Below are positions 43,820 to 59,334 of a DNA stretch of 64,000 nucleotides, piece by piece. Positions within the stretch are counted from its first letter, which is position 1. Every line of letters starts with the position of its first letter. Source of the stretch: Bifidobacterium sp. ESL0704. Its GTDB lineage: Bacteria; Actinomycetota; Actinomycetes; Actinomycetales; Bifidobacteriaceae. A program made the position numbers and the translations under genes. Under the pieces are notes generated by a model. That model saw only the letters and a list, made by a program, of their open reading frames with translations. It made no database searches and was not told where the DNA came from. Location: contig NZ_CP113929.1 in NCBI RefSeq assembly GCF_029392075.1, positions 2,351,816-2,415,815 of the forward strand, in the 5' to 3' direction.

Positions 43820-44203
43820 GTTACGCCGCCTCATAAGAAGCAGCGCGGTTCAGCCATCCGTCTTATAGGATCGCTACCGCATGCACTCGGCGCCATAAGG
43901 CACGGATTGCCCCATGATAACAGCGCCATCAAGGCAATATCGAGATTCCTATACCGAAATCAAGAAGCCCCGAGAGAATCAGGCAATCCGACATCGCCAT
44001 CATATGCGCGATTGGTCGGTGAAAGTCATCGCGCCCCGAGCATTGCCCGGGTCATTCAGGCTTCGTCTCATGGGCTTTACCGGTAGAGCGTTTCATGGTT
44101 ATCGTCCTCATTCTCCGATTGATCGGTGCAGGTTGTGGCTTCGACTGGTAACCCGCGCAGATTTTTCTCGTGAAAGAAGATGCCTGCCCCAAGCTACTTG
44201 CCG
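43820..44203. other. Intergenic region between pknB and the second pilus locus
   Basis: Apart from the hairpin at 43776-43819, the gap between pknB and the sortase (convergent) holds no recognisable gene. A 102-codon frame at 43914-44222 is Arg/His-rich, lacks a ribosome binding site and runs into the sortase gene on the other strand. Confidence 0.5.
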
Positions 44204-47432: not shown

Positions 47433-47600
47433 CATGAGCTTCTCGGCAACTTTTGCCATTCCAATTCATGCACATCTCAAGTTTTTGTCGAACGCCATGA
47501 CGCTTTCCACAGGACAGCACAGTGTCACCGTGTTCCAAATCGTTGCGTTTCGGATAGACGCGCTCAGCGCTCACCGGCATCAAAGTTACATGCGTGTAGT

Positions 47601-47838
47601 TTTCCACAAATGTGGAAAAACATGTGGACAACTTGGGCATAACCAGTGAATTACTGGAGGAAAAGTCACCGACTTATTCACATGCCTATTCCAAAATCCC
47701 GAAATTCCAACGTTTTTTAATTGTGTATATTGTGGATAACCGATCATGCACAACGGCACTCTTGTTATGCAACCCTATGTGTACAACTCTCAATTTATCC
47801 ACACTTATCCACAATCTTTTGCACCTTGCTGTGGATAA
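47601..47838. other. Cluster of DnaA boxes upstream of crgA and the second pilin
   Basis: Perfect or TTATTCACA-type boxes: 47674-47682, 47731-47739 (reverse), 47795-47803, 47805-47813, 47830-47838 (reverse). Near matches are at 47601, 47611 and 47623. The region is AT-rich and lies between two genes whose 3' (crgA) and 5' (pilin) ends flank it, about 14 kb from dnaA. No gene is seen in the 617-base gap. It could be an origin element or a DnaA-titrating site. Confidence 0.7.
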
Positions 47839-53366: not shown

Positions 53367-54884
53367 TTACACCCAACCGTTTTGCTGATTATCATTGCGC
53401 TGCGGAACCAGCAACTTGACAATACGATCCATATCCTCGGGAGAAGAGAACACAATTTCGATACGGCCGTGTTCCTTATTGCCCTTGATGGCGACTTTCG
53501 TATCGAAACGGTTCTCCAACTTATGCTGAATCGGCGACTGAGCCCACAGATTATTCTGCTTCGCCTTTTGCTTCCTGGAGCTGCCTTTACCGTTCGTTTT
53601 CATCGCGACGATTTCTTCGGTGCTTCGCACAGAAAGCCCCTCGGCGATGATACGGTTGGCCAGCTTCTCCATGTCTTCCTCGCTGGGAAGACCGAGCAAC
53701 GCCCTTGCATGTCCTGCTGAAAGAACACCAGCCGCAACTTTCTTCTGAACTGAAGGCGGAAGATTGAGCAGTCGCAGCGTATTGGCAATCTGGGAACGGG
53801 ACTTGGAGACAGATTTGGAAAGCTGTTCCTGCGTAAGCCCAAATTCTTCCATCATCTGCTGATAAGCCGCCGACTCCTCCAACGGATTCAATGCCACTCG
53901 GTGCAAATTCTCAAGCAGAGCATCGCGAAGCATCTGATTATCAGAAGTCGTTTTCACAATAGCAGGAATCGATTTCAATCCCGCCAAATGAGCCGCACGC
54001 CAACGCCTCTCGCCCATGATTAGCTCATATTCGCTATCCATGTTCTTCTGCACATGTCTGCTGATTACACCATGGCTAGCGTCAGCCGAATCAGCGATTT
54101 TCTGATTTGCCGGACGCTTACGCACCACTACGGGCTGCAACACCCCGACTTCTTTCAACGATGCTGCAAGTTCTTTCAACTCGTCTTCGTCAAAAATCGT
54201 TCGCGGCTGATTTGCATTTGGACCTATGGCATCAAGGTCGAGTTCCACCAAATATCCACCAGCTACCGGCTTCAACTCACCGGAAACAGACTCACCTGAC
54301 GTTTCGCTCCCTACGATTTCTTTGATCAGCGCGTTGTTTCCGTCATTAACGCTCTTTAGTTCTTTGGAATGCTTGAATCTGCCAGTCCCAGCTTTACCTG
54401 CGTCCTCGTTTTTTTCATCATCAACAATGGAGCCAAAGAACAAATCGCTGGGATGGGCCATCCCCTCTTTCAACGAAGGCATAGAAGCGCGTCTCCTTGA
54501 CGAGCGCAGCGATGTTTCACGTGAAACATTGTTTTTCTTGGACTCATCCTTCTTCGGTTTTTTGGTTGCAACCGCAGACGCTTCTGATACAGATCCTTTA
54601 GTTTTCACTGTTTCAGGAGGCACAGCTTGGGATGTTTCACGTGAAACATTGTTTTCCCGCTCATCCTTTGATGTCTTTGAAGTGGGACTTTTCGCTTGTT
54701 TGCTTGCCTTTGCGTACGTTTGAGCAGATGTTTCACGTGAAACATTACGCGAAGAACCGACTTTAGCGGATTTCTGGGAGGATTCTGATTCCGGATCAAT
54801 AACCGAATCTGTTTTCCCTTGATCGCCGGGCAGAGCTGGAAATAGTGCGCCAAGGCCTTTTCCTAAACGTGACTTCGCTGCCAT
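53367..54884 (-). CDS. parB: Chromosome-partition protein ParB with parS sites in its own gene
   Basis: Binds parS, spreads and loads SMC. The conserved core starts near residue 210: LDLDAIGPNANQPRTIFDEDEL, GERRWRAAHLAG (CTP/N-box region), LLENLHRVALNPLEESAAYQ, the helix-turn-helix GLTQEQLSKSVSKSRSQIANTLRLL (in part), LSAGHARALLG, and a C-terminal dimer domain. The first 200 residues are a Lys/Ser/Glu-rich linker containing NVSRET three times (about 47, 79, 119); each is encoded by a perfect parS. It starts one base after the parA stop, with GAGGAG upstream. 505 aa, against about 300-350 usual. Confidence 0.95.
   Translation of the reverse strand: MAAKSRLGKGLGALFPALPGDQGKTDSVIDPESESSQKSAKVGSSRNVSRETSAQTYAKASKQAKSPTSKTSKDERENNVSRETSQAVPPETVKTKGSVSEASAVATKKPKKDESKKNNVSRETSLRSSRRRASMPSLKEGMAHPSDLFFGSIVDDEKNEDAGKAGTGRFKHSKELKSVNDGNNALIKEIVGSETSGESVSGELKPVAGGYLVELDLDAIGPNANQPRTIFDEDELKELAASLKEVGVLQPVVVRKRPANQKIADSADASHGVISRHVQKNMDSEYELIMGERRWRAAHLAGLKSIPAIVKTTSDNQMLRDALLENLHRVALNPLEESAAYQQMMEEFGLTQEQLSKSVSKSRSQIANTLRLLNLPPSVQKKVAAGVLSAGHARALLGLPSEEDMEKLANRIIAEGLSVRSTEEIVAMKTNGKGSSRKQKAKQNNLWAQSPIQHKLENRFDTKVAIKGNKEHGRIEIVFSSPEDMDRIVKLLVPQRNDNQQNGWV
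54513..54528. promoter_or_regulatory. parS site 1 (inside parB)
   Basis: TGTTTCACGTGAAACA, the exact ParB-binding palindrome, in the parB frame as NVSRET (about residue 119). Confidence 0.95.
54633..54648. promoter_or_regulatory. parS site 2 (inside parB)
   Basis: Exact 16-base parS, 120 bases from site 1 and in the same reading frame (NVSRET, about residue 79). Confidence 0.95.
54729..54744. promoter_or_regulatory. parS site 3 (inside parB)
   Basis: Exact parS, 96 bases from site 2, again read NVSRET (residues 47-52 of ParB). Confidence 0.95.
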
Positions 54885-54885
54885 A

Positions 54886-55833
54886 TCAGTTTCTCCTCTG
54901 CTTTCTATCTTCCAACGCTTTCAATACTTGTGGCGACCTTCTGGCTATTTCCAATGCAGCCTCGCGATAGGACACCGCCCCGGTTCCCCTTGGATCATAT
55001 TCGATGACTGTTTTACCAAAACTCGGCGCTTCGGATATCTTTACCGACCTGGGAATAGTGGTTCGCAAAACGATGTCTGGGTAATGATCTTTAACCTGGT
55101 CATACACCTCTTTGCTCAGCAACGTACGCTTATCGAACATGGTGACCAACATCGTCGACACCAGCAGCGAAGGATTGTAATGTTCCTGAACGAGACCAAT
55201 CGTCTGAATGAGTTGCCCCAAACCTTCGAGCGCATAATACTCGGCCTGTATCGGAATCAGCACTTCATTGACTGCACACATAGCATTGATCACCAAAAGT
55301 CCGAGACTTGGAGGGCAGTCAATAATGACATAATCATATTTCTTTGTGGAAGAAGATAGGAATTTTTTCAATGCTTTTTTCAGCAAATCATTTCTATCAG
55401 TTAAATCCGCGACTTCTAGTTCAGCGCCACTCAAGTCAATGGACGAGCGAACTACATCCAATGTTTCAAAAGTGCCTGAAGTCTGTTTCACTTCATCAAT
55501 GGTCAGCCTGCCTTCAAGCACGTCGTAGATAGACGGCTCCCCTGTGTTGTGTTTAACCCCAAGTGCTGTAGAAGCGTTGCCCTGCGGATCCATGTCGATA
55601 ACCAAAACCTGCTGCTTCTGAAAAGCCAACGCAGCCGTAAGGTTAACAGTAGTCGTCGTTTTCCCTACGCCACCCTTTTGGTTGGCTACCGCAATAAGCC
55701 GAGTCGACTTTGGTTTCGGAAAACGAACCTTATTCAAGGCTTCATACCTTGATCGAATCTCGGCCATCTCAGAGCCGAGAGAATCACCTTTACTGCCGAA
55801 GATACGTCTGATTGTTTCCGAGGCAGATTCCAT
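54886..55833 (-). CDS. parA: Chromosome-partition ATPase ParA
   Basis: Deviant Walker ATPase that moves ParB-parS complexes. The P-loop KGGVGKTTTTVNL, the switch DMDPQGNASTALG and YVIIDCPPSLGLL are all present; IQAEYYALEGLGQL and SVKISEAPSFGK are typical of chromosomal ParA/Soj. About 316 aa. Several starts are crowded: ATG at 55833 is nine bases after GGGAG and is preferred over ATG 55839 and TTG 55842. Forms an operon with parB (one-base gap). Confidence 0.95.
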   Translation of the reverse strand: MESASETIRRIFGSKGDSLGSEMAEIRSRYEALNKVRFPKPKSTRLIAVANQKGGVGKTTTTVNLTAALAFQKQQVLVIDMDPQGNASTALGVKHNTGEPSIYDVLEGRLTIDEVKQTSGTFETLDVVRSSIDLSGAELEVADLTDRNDLLKKALKKFLSSSTKKYDYVIIDCPPSLGLLVINAMCAVNEVLIPIQAEYYALEGLGQLIQTIGLVQEHYNPSLLVSTMLVTMFDKRTLLSKEVYDQVKDHYPDIVLRTTIPRSVKISEAPSFGKTVIEYDPRGTGAVSYREAALEIARRSPQVLKALEDRKQRRN

Positions 55834-55948
55834 ATCCATCAACTCCCTACGACTATCCGCCGCACATAACAGACTGTGGGATCAGCACAGTAATTACTTG
55901 TTCTAATTCTTCTAGTTTCGTCATTCGTATGGACAGATTCTGCATCTA

Positions 55949-56114
55949 CACACTTATCCACACCGATGTGGATAAGTGTGCGTAACTTTTGTGCACAAAT
56001 TCTTGTGTTCGAAAATTTGTTCGCTTAATCGTTGAAATTTCAATAATTACAGAACCTCCTTGAAATGCATTTAAAAATGTGGATAACTTTTTGAATTGTT
56101 GAAAATGTGGATAA
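55949..56114. other. DnaA-box cluster with an inverted pair, candidate origin element
   Basis: Four perfect boxes: TTATCCACA 55954-55962 and TGTGGATAA 55967-55975, then reverse boxes at 56078-56086 and 56106-56114. The first two face each other inside a 32-base inverted repeat (55949-55980, 14-base arms, four-base centre). The intervening DNA is AT-rich. Confidence 0.72.
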
Positions 56115-56131
56115 CTCCGTTCATAAGGGAT

Positions 56132-56147
56132 TGTTTCACGTGAAACA
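56132..56147. promoter_or_regulatory. parS site 4 (intergenic)
   Basis: Exact parS, 17 bases from the last DnaA box of the parA-rsmG cluster. Confidence 0.95.
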
Positions 56148-56439
56148 TTGCCGGTCTGAATACCCGTGTCGCACAATTAAAATTCCGGACATCCTGAGTC
56201 AATCAATTGAACTTATTGTTATTCAATTCAACCAATTTCAAAAACAACTACCACATAAGGATTCATCTAAAGTTTTTTAGATTACTTATAAAGCCGAACA
56301 AGTATGTTGACTGTTGCTGGTTCAAAAATGACTCATGTTAAAGGTGCAAATCGAACCGCAACACCTTAACCACAATTAATTCAGAACAGTAATCAATATC
56401 CGGCTTTTGAAAATTATTTTTCAGACGTGTTCTAGAAAT

Positions 56440-56455
56440 TGTTTCACGTGAAACA
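56440..56455. promoter_or_regulatory. parS site 5 (intergenic)
   Basis: Exact parS in the AT-rich parA-rsmG gap, with the same flanks (T before, TTG after) as site 4. Confidence 0.95.
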
Positions 56456-57043
56456 TTGCTGATGCAGATGGGAAGAGTACATGTTAACAAGAAAATGCCC
56501 ATCAACAGTAAGGCAATATACGACAAAGATGATCCATGCTGCTTATAGCAGCAAATCATTCTTGAGCAGCAACTGATTGTTTTAGGAAGCCATGCATCGA
56601 ATACAGGGCACTCTTTATTACGATACCAATATCAATCCGAGTGATCGGCTTAACTGCGGTGGAAAAATGAAGACTTGATTGACGAAGAATCCGTTACAGA
56701 GCTTTATCGTTAATGTCGAAAAAAATATATGCCGTTTTACCTGATCAACAAACAGAAGATTGCGGTATTCCACAACACATAGAAATAGCCATCCTAGAGC
56801 AGATCGCTACCCGAGAATCATTCGATCAAACAGCAAATCATAATGTTCAACTCCGAGACTGCCGATACCATACATACCAATAAGAGCACACATCGTGAGT
56901 AACGACAAGCAATAATTGATAGTGTTTAGACATTTATGAAAAGAACCAAATGTACTTTTAGCGGAACAATAATCTCATAAAACACTAAGGCTTCATGAAT
57001 ACTCATTACAAAAAATCTGGTTACCTATACACGTTCACAAAAA

Positions 57044-57079
57044 GATAGGGGAATGTTTCACGTGAAACATTCCCCTATC
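57044..57079 (-). terminator. rsmG terminator whose stem contains parS site 6
   Basis: A perfect 36-base palindrome beginning GATAGGGGAA, centred at 57061/57062, with the exact parS at 57054-57069 in its middle. On the minus strand it is followed by TTTTT (57039-57043), 17 bases beyond the rsmG stop, so it has terminator form. With a perfect palindrome the RNA loop must form by opening the central pairs. Confidence 0.85.
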
Positions 57080-57095
57080 GAGCAGAATCCAAAGT

Positions 57096-57782
57096 CTATT
57101 TTTTGTCGATGATGACTACATGGGTTGGTTCAAAACCTTCTGCAATTGGAGCTTCAAGAACCTGTGGATTACGTCCTCCACTTTTCTGTATCTCTTTTGC
57201 TGCCTTACGGACCTCTGCAGGTGCTGAACGCCCCTTTAGTGCTATTAACTGGCCGCTATGCTTGACGAGAGGCAACGTCCACCCGCTGAGTTTGGTCATC
57301 GGCGCAACGGCACGGCTCGTCACAACAGAGAAAGGATGCAACGCCTTATCATGCTTGAGCGTATGAATATATTCCTCTGCCCTTGCACGAACGACCCGAA
57401 CGTTTCCGAGTTCAAGTTGATCGACACATTCATTGAGCCATTCTACTCGACGCTCCATGGGCTCGATAAGCGTAACTTCGTGATCTGGCAAACATGCTGC
57501 TACAACGATACCGGGGAATCCACCACCACTACCGATATCAGCAACCGTCTTAAACCGCTGCCCATCAGTTGAGGATTCAATAAAAGGTACTATCGCAGCT
57601 GAATTGAGAATATGCCGTTCCCATATAATATCGACATCACGCGGACCGATGATACCCCGTTCCTCGCCCTCTTGCGTAAGCTTATGCTTGAACGCTTCCA
57701 TCTTCGGAAGTACGTCACCGAACAAATCCTTTAACAACGCGGACTTTTCTAGTTCTTCGTCCGTATGTATCGTAAAGTCCAT
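57096..57782 (-). CDS. rsmG: 16S rRNA m7G527 methyltransferase RsmG (GidB)
   Basis: SAM-dependent methyltransferase acting on 16S rRNA G527. Key parts: [13 protein letters not shown], the SAM loop [27 protein letters not shown] and [13 protein letters not shown]. 228 aa, normal length. Loss of this enzyme gives low-level streptomycin resistance in other bacteria. It lies alone between two long AT-rich gaps, in the usual origin-proximal order. Confidence 0.96.
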
Positions 57783-58501
57783 CTCAACCCTTATCTATCA
57801 AGAACAAATAACCAATCTACCAGAGACTTTGCACATATTAAAGAAAACCGGGAACGATAGCAGTCAGAAATAACAGTACCTTATTCAAGAAAGACAGCCG
57901 AACCAACTGAATAATAAATATAAAGAAGAACTACACAAAGAAGATTAGTAATATTCCGGCCAACGACATGATGTAATACATCAAATCGGAATAGACACAT
58001 CTCGGATATATATCGCTTACTACAATATCCGACACAAAAGCTGTTGTGACCATCAACGTTCAGTAATGCTACCCTCTCCATTCAAGTCGCTAGAAAATAT
58101 TTCTTACCATAGTTCGTCTCATCGGCTCACATTGCCATGAATACGATGAACAACGGAAAAGAACACAATCCTTGAATCTTGCAAAACGGATCATAGGCCA
58201 TAGAATTACGTTCCATAAATGGAATCGTACCCACAACCAGACAGTGGACACTCATGAAGCCAATCAATCACACTAAGTCCGAAATAACGATGCAAGAGCT
58301 TTCAATGAATTCACGTTCTGCAATCCCATTCATTGATTATTCCATCGATGACAACACCCAACCGATTACCCTTGTCGGAATAAAGATACGAAACATCTAC
58401 TCCCATAAGGCAAAACGTGGCTAATAAATAGGGAATTCAGACCTATAACCGGCCAGTTACACTGGGGAAAACGAATCGCTCGATCAGTGCAACCATAAAA
58501 T
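57783..58501. other. AT-rich gap between rsmG and jag
   Basis: About 720 bases with no gene, DnaA box or parS that I can find. Only short AT-rich frames occur. The jag terminator follows at 58502. Confidence 0.55.
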
Positions 58502-58536
58502 TTGTGGGCCGCAACTCAATGAACTGCGGCCCACAA
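58502..58536 (-). terminator. Rho-independent terminator of jag
   Basis: TTGTGGGCCGCA and TGCGGCCCACAA pair perfectly with an 11-base loop. On the minus strand ATTTTATG follows. It lies 44 bases beyond the jag stop and would end the rpmH-rnpA-yidD-yidC-jag unit. Confidence 0.88.
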
Positions 58537-58580
58537 TACATAACGGATACATCCTTATTCAGTACAAAAAGCGTGCTGAA

Positions 58581-59243
58581 TCAACGCTCGTCATCATCCA
58601 CTTCATCGTCATAAGCGGAATCCTCACGATCGTCTTCCGACTCTGAAATTTCCTCGTCAAGCCGCTCATCGTCATCGATTGTTTCACGTGAAACATTCGT
58701 GCGCTCGTCATCTTCGAGATCGTCATCGTCATCCAGCTCATCTTCCGCAGGACGTGGCTTTACATAAATGGTGACATAGCGATGAGGCTCCTCGCCATGC
58801 GAACGAGACTTCAGACCTTCTTCGCGTACCAGATCATGAACAACCTTACGTTCAAAGGAATTCATCGGGTCAAGGTTTGCGGGGTCCCCGGTCTCACGGA
58901 CCTCGTCAATCACATCGAGCGCCAGATCGCGCAAATGCTGGCGGCGCTTCTTGAGGTAACCATCCACATCAAGAATCAGACGGGACCTATCGCCGGTCTT
59001 CTGCTGAACAGCCAAACGAGTCAATAATTGTAATGCATCAACGACTTCGCCCTTATGCCCGATAAGGTTTCTGATATCCTCGTCATCATCGGCGACAATC
59101 TGAACGGTGGGGCGCCCGTTACGCACTCCCATCTCAATATCACCTTCGTAATCCGCGATATCCAACAACCCCTCGAGATAGTCAGCAGCGATGTCAGCTT
59201 CGTCATTGAGCTGCTCGACCGTCTTTTCCTCATCACGAGACAT
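58581..59243 (-). CDS. jag: Jag/KhpB RNA-binding protein (KH and R3H domains)
   Basis: RNA-binding partner of the yidC locus, linked to cell division and wall synthesis in other Gram-positives. KH motif LIGHKGEVVDALQLL (about 70-85) and R3H-type segment MNSFERKVVHDLV with HRYVTIYVKP (about 130-160). The C-terminal about 60 residues are strongly acidic and contain NVSRET (about 184-189), encoded by parS site 7. The ATG at 59243 follows AAGGAG; the longer frame to 59324 is discarded. 220 aa. Confidence 0.93.
   Translation of the reverse strand: MSRDEEKTVEQLNDEADIAADYLEGLLDIADYEGDIEMGVRNGRPTVQIVADDDEDIRNLIGHKGEVVDALQLLTRLAVQQKTGDRSRLILDVDGYLKKRRQHLRDLALDVIDEVRETGDPANLDPMNSFERKVVHDLVREEGLKSRSHGEEPHRYVTIYVKPRPAEDELDDDDDLEDDERTNVSRETIDDDERLDEEISESEDDREDSAYDDEVDDDER
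58680..58695. promoter_or_regulatory. parS site 7 (inside jag)
   Basis: Exact parS, read NVSRET in the acidic C-terminal tail of Jag. Confidence 0.95.
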
Positions 59244-59288
59244 ATCCAACTCCTTTATCCGACGTATTGTCCTTAAGTCTAACCCAAA

Positions 59289-59334
59289 CCCGACCCCGTA
59301 TAGCATATGTATCACATACACCAACGAGGTCGGG
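59289..59334 (-). terminator. Weak hairpin between yidC and jag
   Basis: CCCGACCCCGT and ACGAGGTCGGG pair with one mismatch, eight bases after the yidC stop. It could attenuate jag; no strong T-run. Confidence 0.4.

Follow-up and report, generated by a model that had tools for sequence, protein, structure and literature searches.

The final 64 kb of a single 2,415,815-bp Bifidobacterium contig (the window) contain seven exact copies of the palindromic 16-mer TGTTTCACGTGAAACA, all located inside 4.2 kb at the genes parA and parB. By far the best overall explanation, which we regard as very probable, is that these copies are the parS centromere of a chromosomal ParABS system, that the palindrome is under selection and that its copies are placed in segments that tolerate them. 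Three copies are situated in parB, one in the tail of jag, two in the gap between rsmG and parA and one behind rsmG. Each is an exact match to the 16-mer; the in-frame positions follow from the open reading frames (ORFs), and no strand is assigned to the palindromes:

54513..54528: parS, in frame in parB (NVSRET, residues 119-124)
54633..54648: parS, in frame in parB (NVSRET, residues 79-84)
54729..54744: parS, in frame in parB (NVSRET, residues 47-52)
56132..56147: non-genic parS upstream of parA, with a DnaA box 17 nt away
56440..56455: parS outside genes, in the rsmG-parA gap
57054..57069: parS behind rsmG, central part of the stem of a terminator-like hairpin
58680..58695: parS, in frame in the acidic Jag tail (NVSRET, residues 210-215)

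All seven copies were present at the positions named in the original prediction, and the residue positions agree with its placement of three copies in the disordered linker of ParB and of one in the Jag tail. The palindromes look like an ordinary chromosomal parS cluster. TGTTTCACGTGAAACA is used as the chromosomal parS consensus, and known chromosomal clusters likewise consist of several copies of the same 16-mer beside parAB (PMC10197239). No exact copy beyond the seven was found in the 2,415,815-bp contig, and at up to three mismatches there was one extra match in the window, at 44162 (three mismatches; chance expectation 0.18).

Conservation of the palindrome and of the spelled peptide

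For comparison we used 112 Bifidobacterium genomes including that of the window. The exact 16-mer is present in 71 of them and a ParB match in 109; the 109 loci analysed are the window and the parB neighbourhoods of 108 relatives. These loci contain 514 sites at up to two mismatches, of which 193 are in ParB, 54 in RsmG, 13 in Jag ORFs, 8 in TrxB (our label for a thioredoxin-reductase-like gene on the plus strand), 3 in RnpA, 1 in ParA and 242 outside these genes. The 13 Jag-ORF sites include five in short ORFs before jag, which count as non-coding in the comparison of arm lengths below.

A search of the 109 ParB proteins for V[SP][RH][EG]T that was blind to the DNA gave 195 hits. In 154 of 155 VSRET peptides the DNA was the exact 14-mer core GTTTCACGTGAAAC, and the inner third-codon positions were altered only once in 620. 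Of the 155 peptides, 22 differed at parS base 1 and 53 at base 16 (75/310 in total); these two outer bases are third-codon positions too. Judged by the codon usage of the remaining linker, the four inner codons are expected with P about 0.005. The other hits were 34 VSHET, 30 of which arise via a CACATG centre, 5 VPRET and 1 VSRGT. In all 195 hits there were 40 residue changes versus 5 inner synonymous changes (one TCT, three CACACG, one CCCATG). This excess of residue changes indicates, at the level of sequence comparison, that the DNA site and not the VSRET peptide was kept in evolution; the comparison of synonymous changes thus gave the opposite of a conserved peptide on a synonymously decaying palindrome, the outcome that had been named in advance as speaking for the peptide. 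The codon test disfavours the reading of NVSRET as a functional peptide, e.g. a short linear motif of ParB, ParA or Jag with the palindrome as a by-product, and we consider it highly improbable: the motif does recur in these three proteins, and RsmG of a Rhodobacteraceae metagenome-assembled genome (MAG; L024) has VSTET in non-parS codons at a similar place, where a protein-level role is possible, but nearly all VSRET peptides of ParB use one coding out of many, residues change where the inner wobble bases hardly do, and 123 exact copies in the 109 loci are located outside the named genes.

The protein probably acts only as a filter on the permitted parS variants. In ParB, the centre change G9 to A (Arg to His) was present at 31 sites and C8 to T (Arg to Cys) at none, versus 19 and 20 sites, respectively, outside the named genes. 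When sites were grouped into flank clusters, 24 Arg to His and 0 Arg to Cys changes remained in ParB and 13 and 16 outside (Fisher p about 7e-6; the grouping removes relatedness only in part). A second asymmetric pair, Ser to Pro versus Glu to Gly, amounted to 5/1 in ParB and 7/13 outside (p 0.065).

Reading frames and host segments

The palindrome has one frame with TGA, one that gives MFHVKH and one that gives xVSRET, as had been predicted. The lack of the TGA frame among coding copies is uninformative because such a frame cannot exist inside an ORF. All 193 ParB sites of the 109 Bifidobacterium loci are read in the xVSRET frame. Beyond the genus, we inspected 36 loci of the family, 26 of the order and 29 of the class; there, with the doubled genomes L176/L229 and L180/L230 counted once, 44 of 44 ParB and 74 of 74 ParA sites have the xVSRET frame. 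Most of these ParA sites are near or upstream of the position at which ParA starts in the window, and N-terminal ParA extensions carrying the upstream sites are likely translated.

The ParB linker reaches from the LGKGLG box to the ParB_N domain and is predicted to be disordered, with values of the predicted local distance difference test (pLDDT) below 50 at residues 21-121, 123-137 and 151-205:

54270..54824, minus strand: ParB disordered linker, residues 21-205 (from pLDDT)

In the 98 loci used for site density (11 of the 109 were left out), ParB linkers had 3.10 sites per kb, Jag tails 1.77 and the sequence between genes 1.41, versus 0.19 for everything else in parB, parA, rsmG, jag and yidC. 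These values show that low-complexity linkers are the favoured coding place, in agreement with the original prediction. A reading in which coding copies use NVSRET only needs to be narrowed: it is correct for the four coding copies of the window and for ParB and the Jag tail of relatives, but not for most RsmG sites and five TrxB sites. In RsmG, 48 loci have a conserved site in the FHVKL frame, read as FHVKL in 37, FHGKL in 8, FHEKL in 2 and FHMKL in 1. All 48 carry A16T, which gives the peptide a Leu at its last position. In the modelled B. subtile protein (L009) the site is within a predicted folded helix (residues 16-38, pLDDT about 95). Outside the genus, 12 RsmG sites have the xFHVKx frame and 7 the xVSRET frame. 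In five loci MFHVKH is at or near the start called for TrxB, and three loci (L077, L111, L116) have TrxB sites in the VSRET frame. The reading frame thus seems to fit the host segment.

Among loci L020-L022, parS overlaps the called parA start (MFHVKH) in a Clostridiales MAG, and RsmG has an N-terminal VSRET on parS or near-parS DNA in a Hyphomonadaceae MAG and in one that carries the label Proteobacteria.

parS in hairpins behind rsmG and yidC

The copy at 57054 begins 26 nt behind the rsmG stop codon and forms the core of a hairpin:

57044..57079, minus strand: 16-pair hairpin GATAGGGGAA-parS-TTCCCCTATC, followed by TTTTTGTGAA; intrinsic-terminator-like (structure scan)

With its 16 pairs and the following TTTTTGTGAA it matches the terminator consensus. 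This match alone is weak because a consensus scan found 15 matches in 7.5 kb versus 7.0 in shuffles. The stable stem-loop and the T-tract behind a stop codon make the hairpin terminator-like, and we describe it as a putative intrinsic terminator. In 12 loci (the window and L056-L066) the site is located 22-33 nt behind the last rsmG sense codon, and the hairpin arms differ among these loci yet remain paired. There, 21 cells were changed on both sides versus 8.0 in shuffles, and the covariation score was 0.280 versus 0.106 (each reached by 0/500 shuffles), which indicates compensatory change in the stem; the 6 pairs with two-sided change were reached by 91/500 shuffles and are hence not unusual. 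The rows of the rsmG and yidC covariation tests had been pre-selected for arms of at least 5 bp, which biases the inner pairs, and we therefore rely on unselected counts.

In these counts, with distances taken from the last sense codon, 37 of the 52 sites that follow yidC or rsmG within 45 nt had arms of at least 5 bp, compared with 18 of 172 other non-coding sites, 2 of 193 ParB sites and 0 of 15 sites behind jag. Behind yidC of other species, a site with extended arms is found 16-33 nt downstream in 23 of the 33 loci that have a site there. Our reading of the sequences is that parS was slotted into hairpins that may have a use of their own. The alternative is that the long arms around non-coding parS are mutational and without a role in RNA, or that parS itself seeded the hairpins. 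We find this alternative possible, though with somewhat less than even chances. Template switching during replication perfects palindromes around a 16-bp seed and would supply a mechanism. Arms of at least 5 bp at 18 of the 172 non-coding sites elsewhere, the rarity of G-U pairs in the arms and the absence of clear T-tracts behind the yidC hairpins examined in relatives are in line with growth by mutation. So is the fact that strong stems are a minority where parS is missing: stems of 8 or more pairs occur in 13 of 71 parS-free loci behind yidC and in 7 of 85 behind rsmG, where several of them are DnaA-box repeats. A mutational origin does not agree well, however, with the concentration of long arms just behind yidC and rsmG and their absence behind jag, with the five or more T within the next 10 nt after 9 of 12 rsmG hairpins (the window and close relatives), or with those species in which the parS-free spot behind yidC holds an unrelated hairpin (e.g. 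L075, L078, L084, L089, L111 and L132).

Behind yidC of L090, parS minus one base is present inside an intact stem. The yidC-jag gap of L156 has a perfect 60-bp palindrome that is centred on parS, with arms of 22 bp beyond the 16-mer.

Length of the ParB linker

It had further been proposed that selection at the level of DNA, through the placement of parS, keeps the ParB linker long. This proposal was not borne out and we consider it improbable. Linkers were measured in 103 ParBs (6 of the 109 loci were dropped since the end motifs were not found) and have a median length of 177 residues; the 14 measurable Bifidobacterium ParBs without a site retain linkers of 160-262 residues with a median of 176.5. 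In favour of the proposal, linker length and number of sites are weakly positively correlated (Spearman rho 0.21, p 0.035, uncorrected for relatedness), and in one alignment the five ParBs from outside the Actinomycetota, which lack parS in the gene, have hardly any linker.

A model of parS placement

In other bacteria, ParB nucleates on parS, after which the origin region is organised and segregated by ParA and SMC. By analogy, ParB would nucleate on the seven palindromes of the window, and ParA and SMC would then act on the origin region in the same way. Selection would act on the DNA palindrome, and copies would persist in host segments that can accommodate an invariant sequence. A copy in a disordered linker would use the open, hydrophilic frame xVSRET, and one in the amphipathic helix of RsmG of relatives would give xFHVKL or a near form; a copy downstream of rsmG, or of yidC in relatives, would be the centre of a palindromic hairpin. 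The host protein would filter the allowed variants, in that ParB admits Arg to His and not Arg to Cys and RsmG takes Leu last. A more general form of this model is that centromere sites are slotted into elements that are bound to a structure and free in sequence, namely linkers (VSRET), an amphipathic helix (FHVKL) and mRNA 3' hairpins, so that the same 16 bp can serve as loading site, code or stem and such elements gain and lose parS in the course of evolution; we give this generalisation an even chance of being correct.

Several observations weigh against placement of parS in tolerant segments as explained here. At 11 of the 48 RsmG sites, FHVKL is replaced by FHGKL, FHEKL or FHMKL. The folded core of ParA (L180, L185, L187, L188) and folded parts of TrxB (the three loci named above) likewise have sites in the VSRET frame, so the frame is not determined by disorder alone. 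No ParB site was present in 15 of the 109 loci, which makes parS in parB dispensable, and several of the 15 have no exact parS genome-wide and nevertheless keep the specificity residues of ParB. Related genomes are not independent of each other, and flank clusters cut this only partly. Finally, two fragmented genomes without a ParB match (G094, G095) have no exact parS, a result that covers exact matches only, and the natural control without ParB, G044, is a single genome and hence no statistic. G044 is a single-contig Bifidobacterium genome of 99% completeness that has no ParB, only a ParA-like protein with 43% identity, of a type that one ParB-bearing relative has as well, and no 16-mer within 2 mismatches genome-wide. 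In comparison, 13 ParB-bearing relatives without exact parS have 6-17 sites at up to two mismatches (0-3 in a reversed-pattern control). G044 thus appears to have lost ParB, the orthologous ParA and all near-parS sites, which fits with sites that exist for ParB.

The specificity residues of Caulobacter ParB are R173 and G201 (PMC7383237). Matched to these by motif, the helix-turn-helix region has KSR...GHAR in 107 of the 109 loci including the window; the pattern was unmatched in L152 and L153. A switch to a new parS motif in site-free loci was considered and rejected: a palindrome search near parB in 17 loci gave no repeated site-like candidate, the words with the highest counts were GC-rich and CGTCGACG-like, which we take as codon composition, and the unchanged specificity residues also speak against a switch. 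Eight loci without parS in parB (L128, L130-L132, L134, L136, L138 and L143) still have TGTTTCACGGGAAACT or TGTTTCACGAGAAACT in rsmG and keep the specificity residues. Their near-parS sites are scattered genome-wide, mostly with one intact half (positions among the matches listed, for four of the eight loci).

Relation to known systems

Intragenic parS is already known, and what is new in the sites described here is their arrangement. The parB gene of Bacillus subtilis, spo0J, contains one parS, in the linker before the C-terminal domain. In Pseudomonas aeruginosa, 9 of 10 parS sites are predicted within coding sequences, and point mutations of parS were designed to leave the coding sequence unaltered (PMC4368675); the account of P. 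aeruginosa parS in that work, as far as it extends to these sites, has nothing on reading frame, disordered hosts or the evolution of the spelled peptide. The actinobacterium Corynebacterium glutamicum has a cluster of ten ParB-recruiting sites, only one of which is in a coding sequence (trpCF) (PMC7083940). Unlike the usual clusters, that of the window has four copies in frame in parB and jag and one in a terminator-like hairpin. The latter resembles intrinsic terminators in its GC-containing stem, its 4-nt loop and the T-tract behind the rsmG stop, but differs from ordinary ones in that the top of the stem is an invariant centromere site and only the outer arms covary. We found no description of a frame rule or of parS as a terminator stem among the titles and abstract openings listed from the open-access literature.

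The sites provide many natural examples of a DNA element that is under stronger selection than its host protein, and they suggest a simple principle that governs the placement of centromeres in compact genomes. They also explain the recurring VSRET in actinobacterial ParA and ParB ORFs, which could be mistaken for a protein motif, and raise the question of how loading of ParB affects a palindrome that would double as a transcription terminator.

Gene neighbourhood and DnaA boxes

The genes on the minus strand are, in this order, rnpA, a short ORF, yidC, jag, rsmG, parA and parB. ParB, ParA, RsmG and Jag were named via Pfam matches:

53367..54884, minus strand: parB (Pfam HTH_ParB and ParB_N)
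54886..55842, minus strand: parA (Pfam AAA_31)
57096..57782, minus strand: rsmG (Pfam GidB)
58581..59324, minus strand: jag (Pfam R3H; KH_KhpA-B under its cut-off)

The closest named ParBs that we found are those of Bifidobacterium sp. ESL0784 (73% identity) and isolate B-bin1 (70%), followed by Bifidobacterium sp. ESL0682 and B. commune (64% each). Near the contig end are rnpA (Pfam) and an rpmH-like ORF (from a reading of the ORF list). The GC skew is negative all the way to the contig end, which suggests that the origin itself is outside the window.

Four exact DnaA boxes (TTATCCACA) are located at 55954-56114, upstream of parA and adjoining the parS at 56132, and 2-10 exact boxes are present in the rsmG-parA gap in 88 of 104 Bifidobacterium loci. 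This suggests control of parAB by DnaA, or else titration of DnaA or an origin element. A further cluster at 47600-47838 has eight DnaA-box matches, four of them exact.

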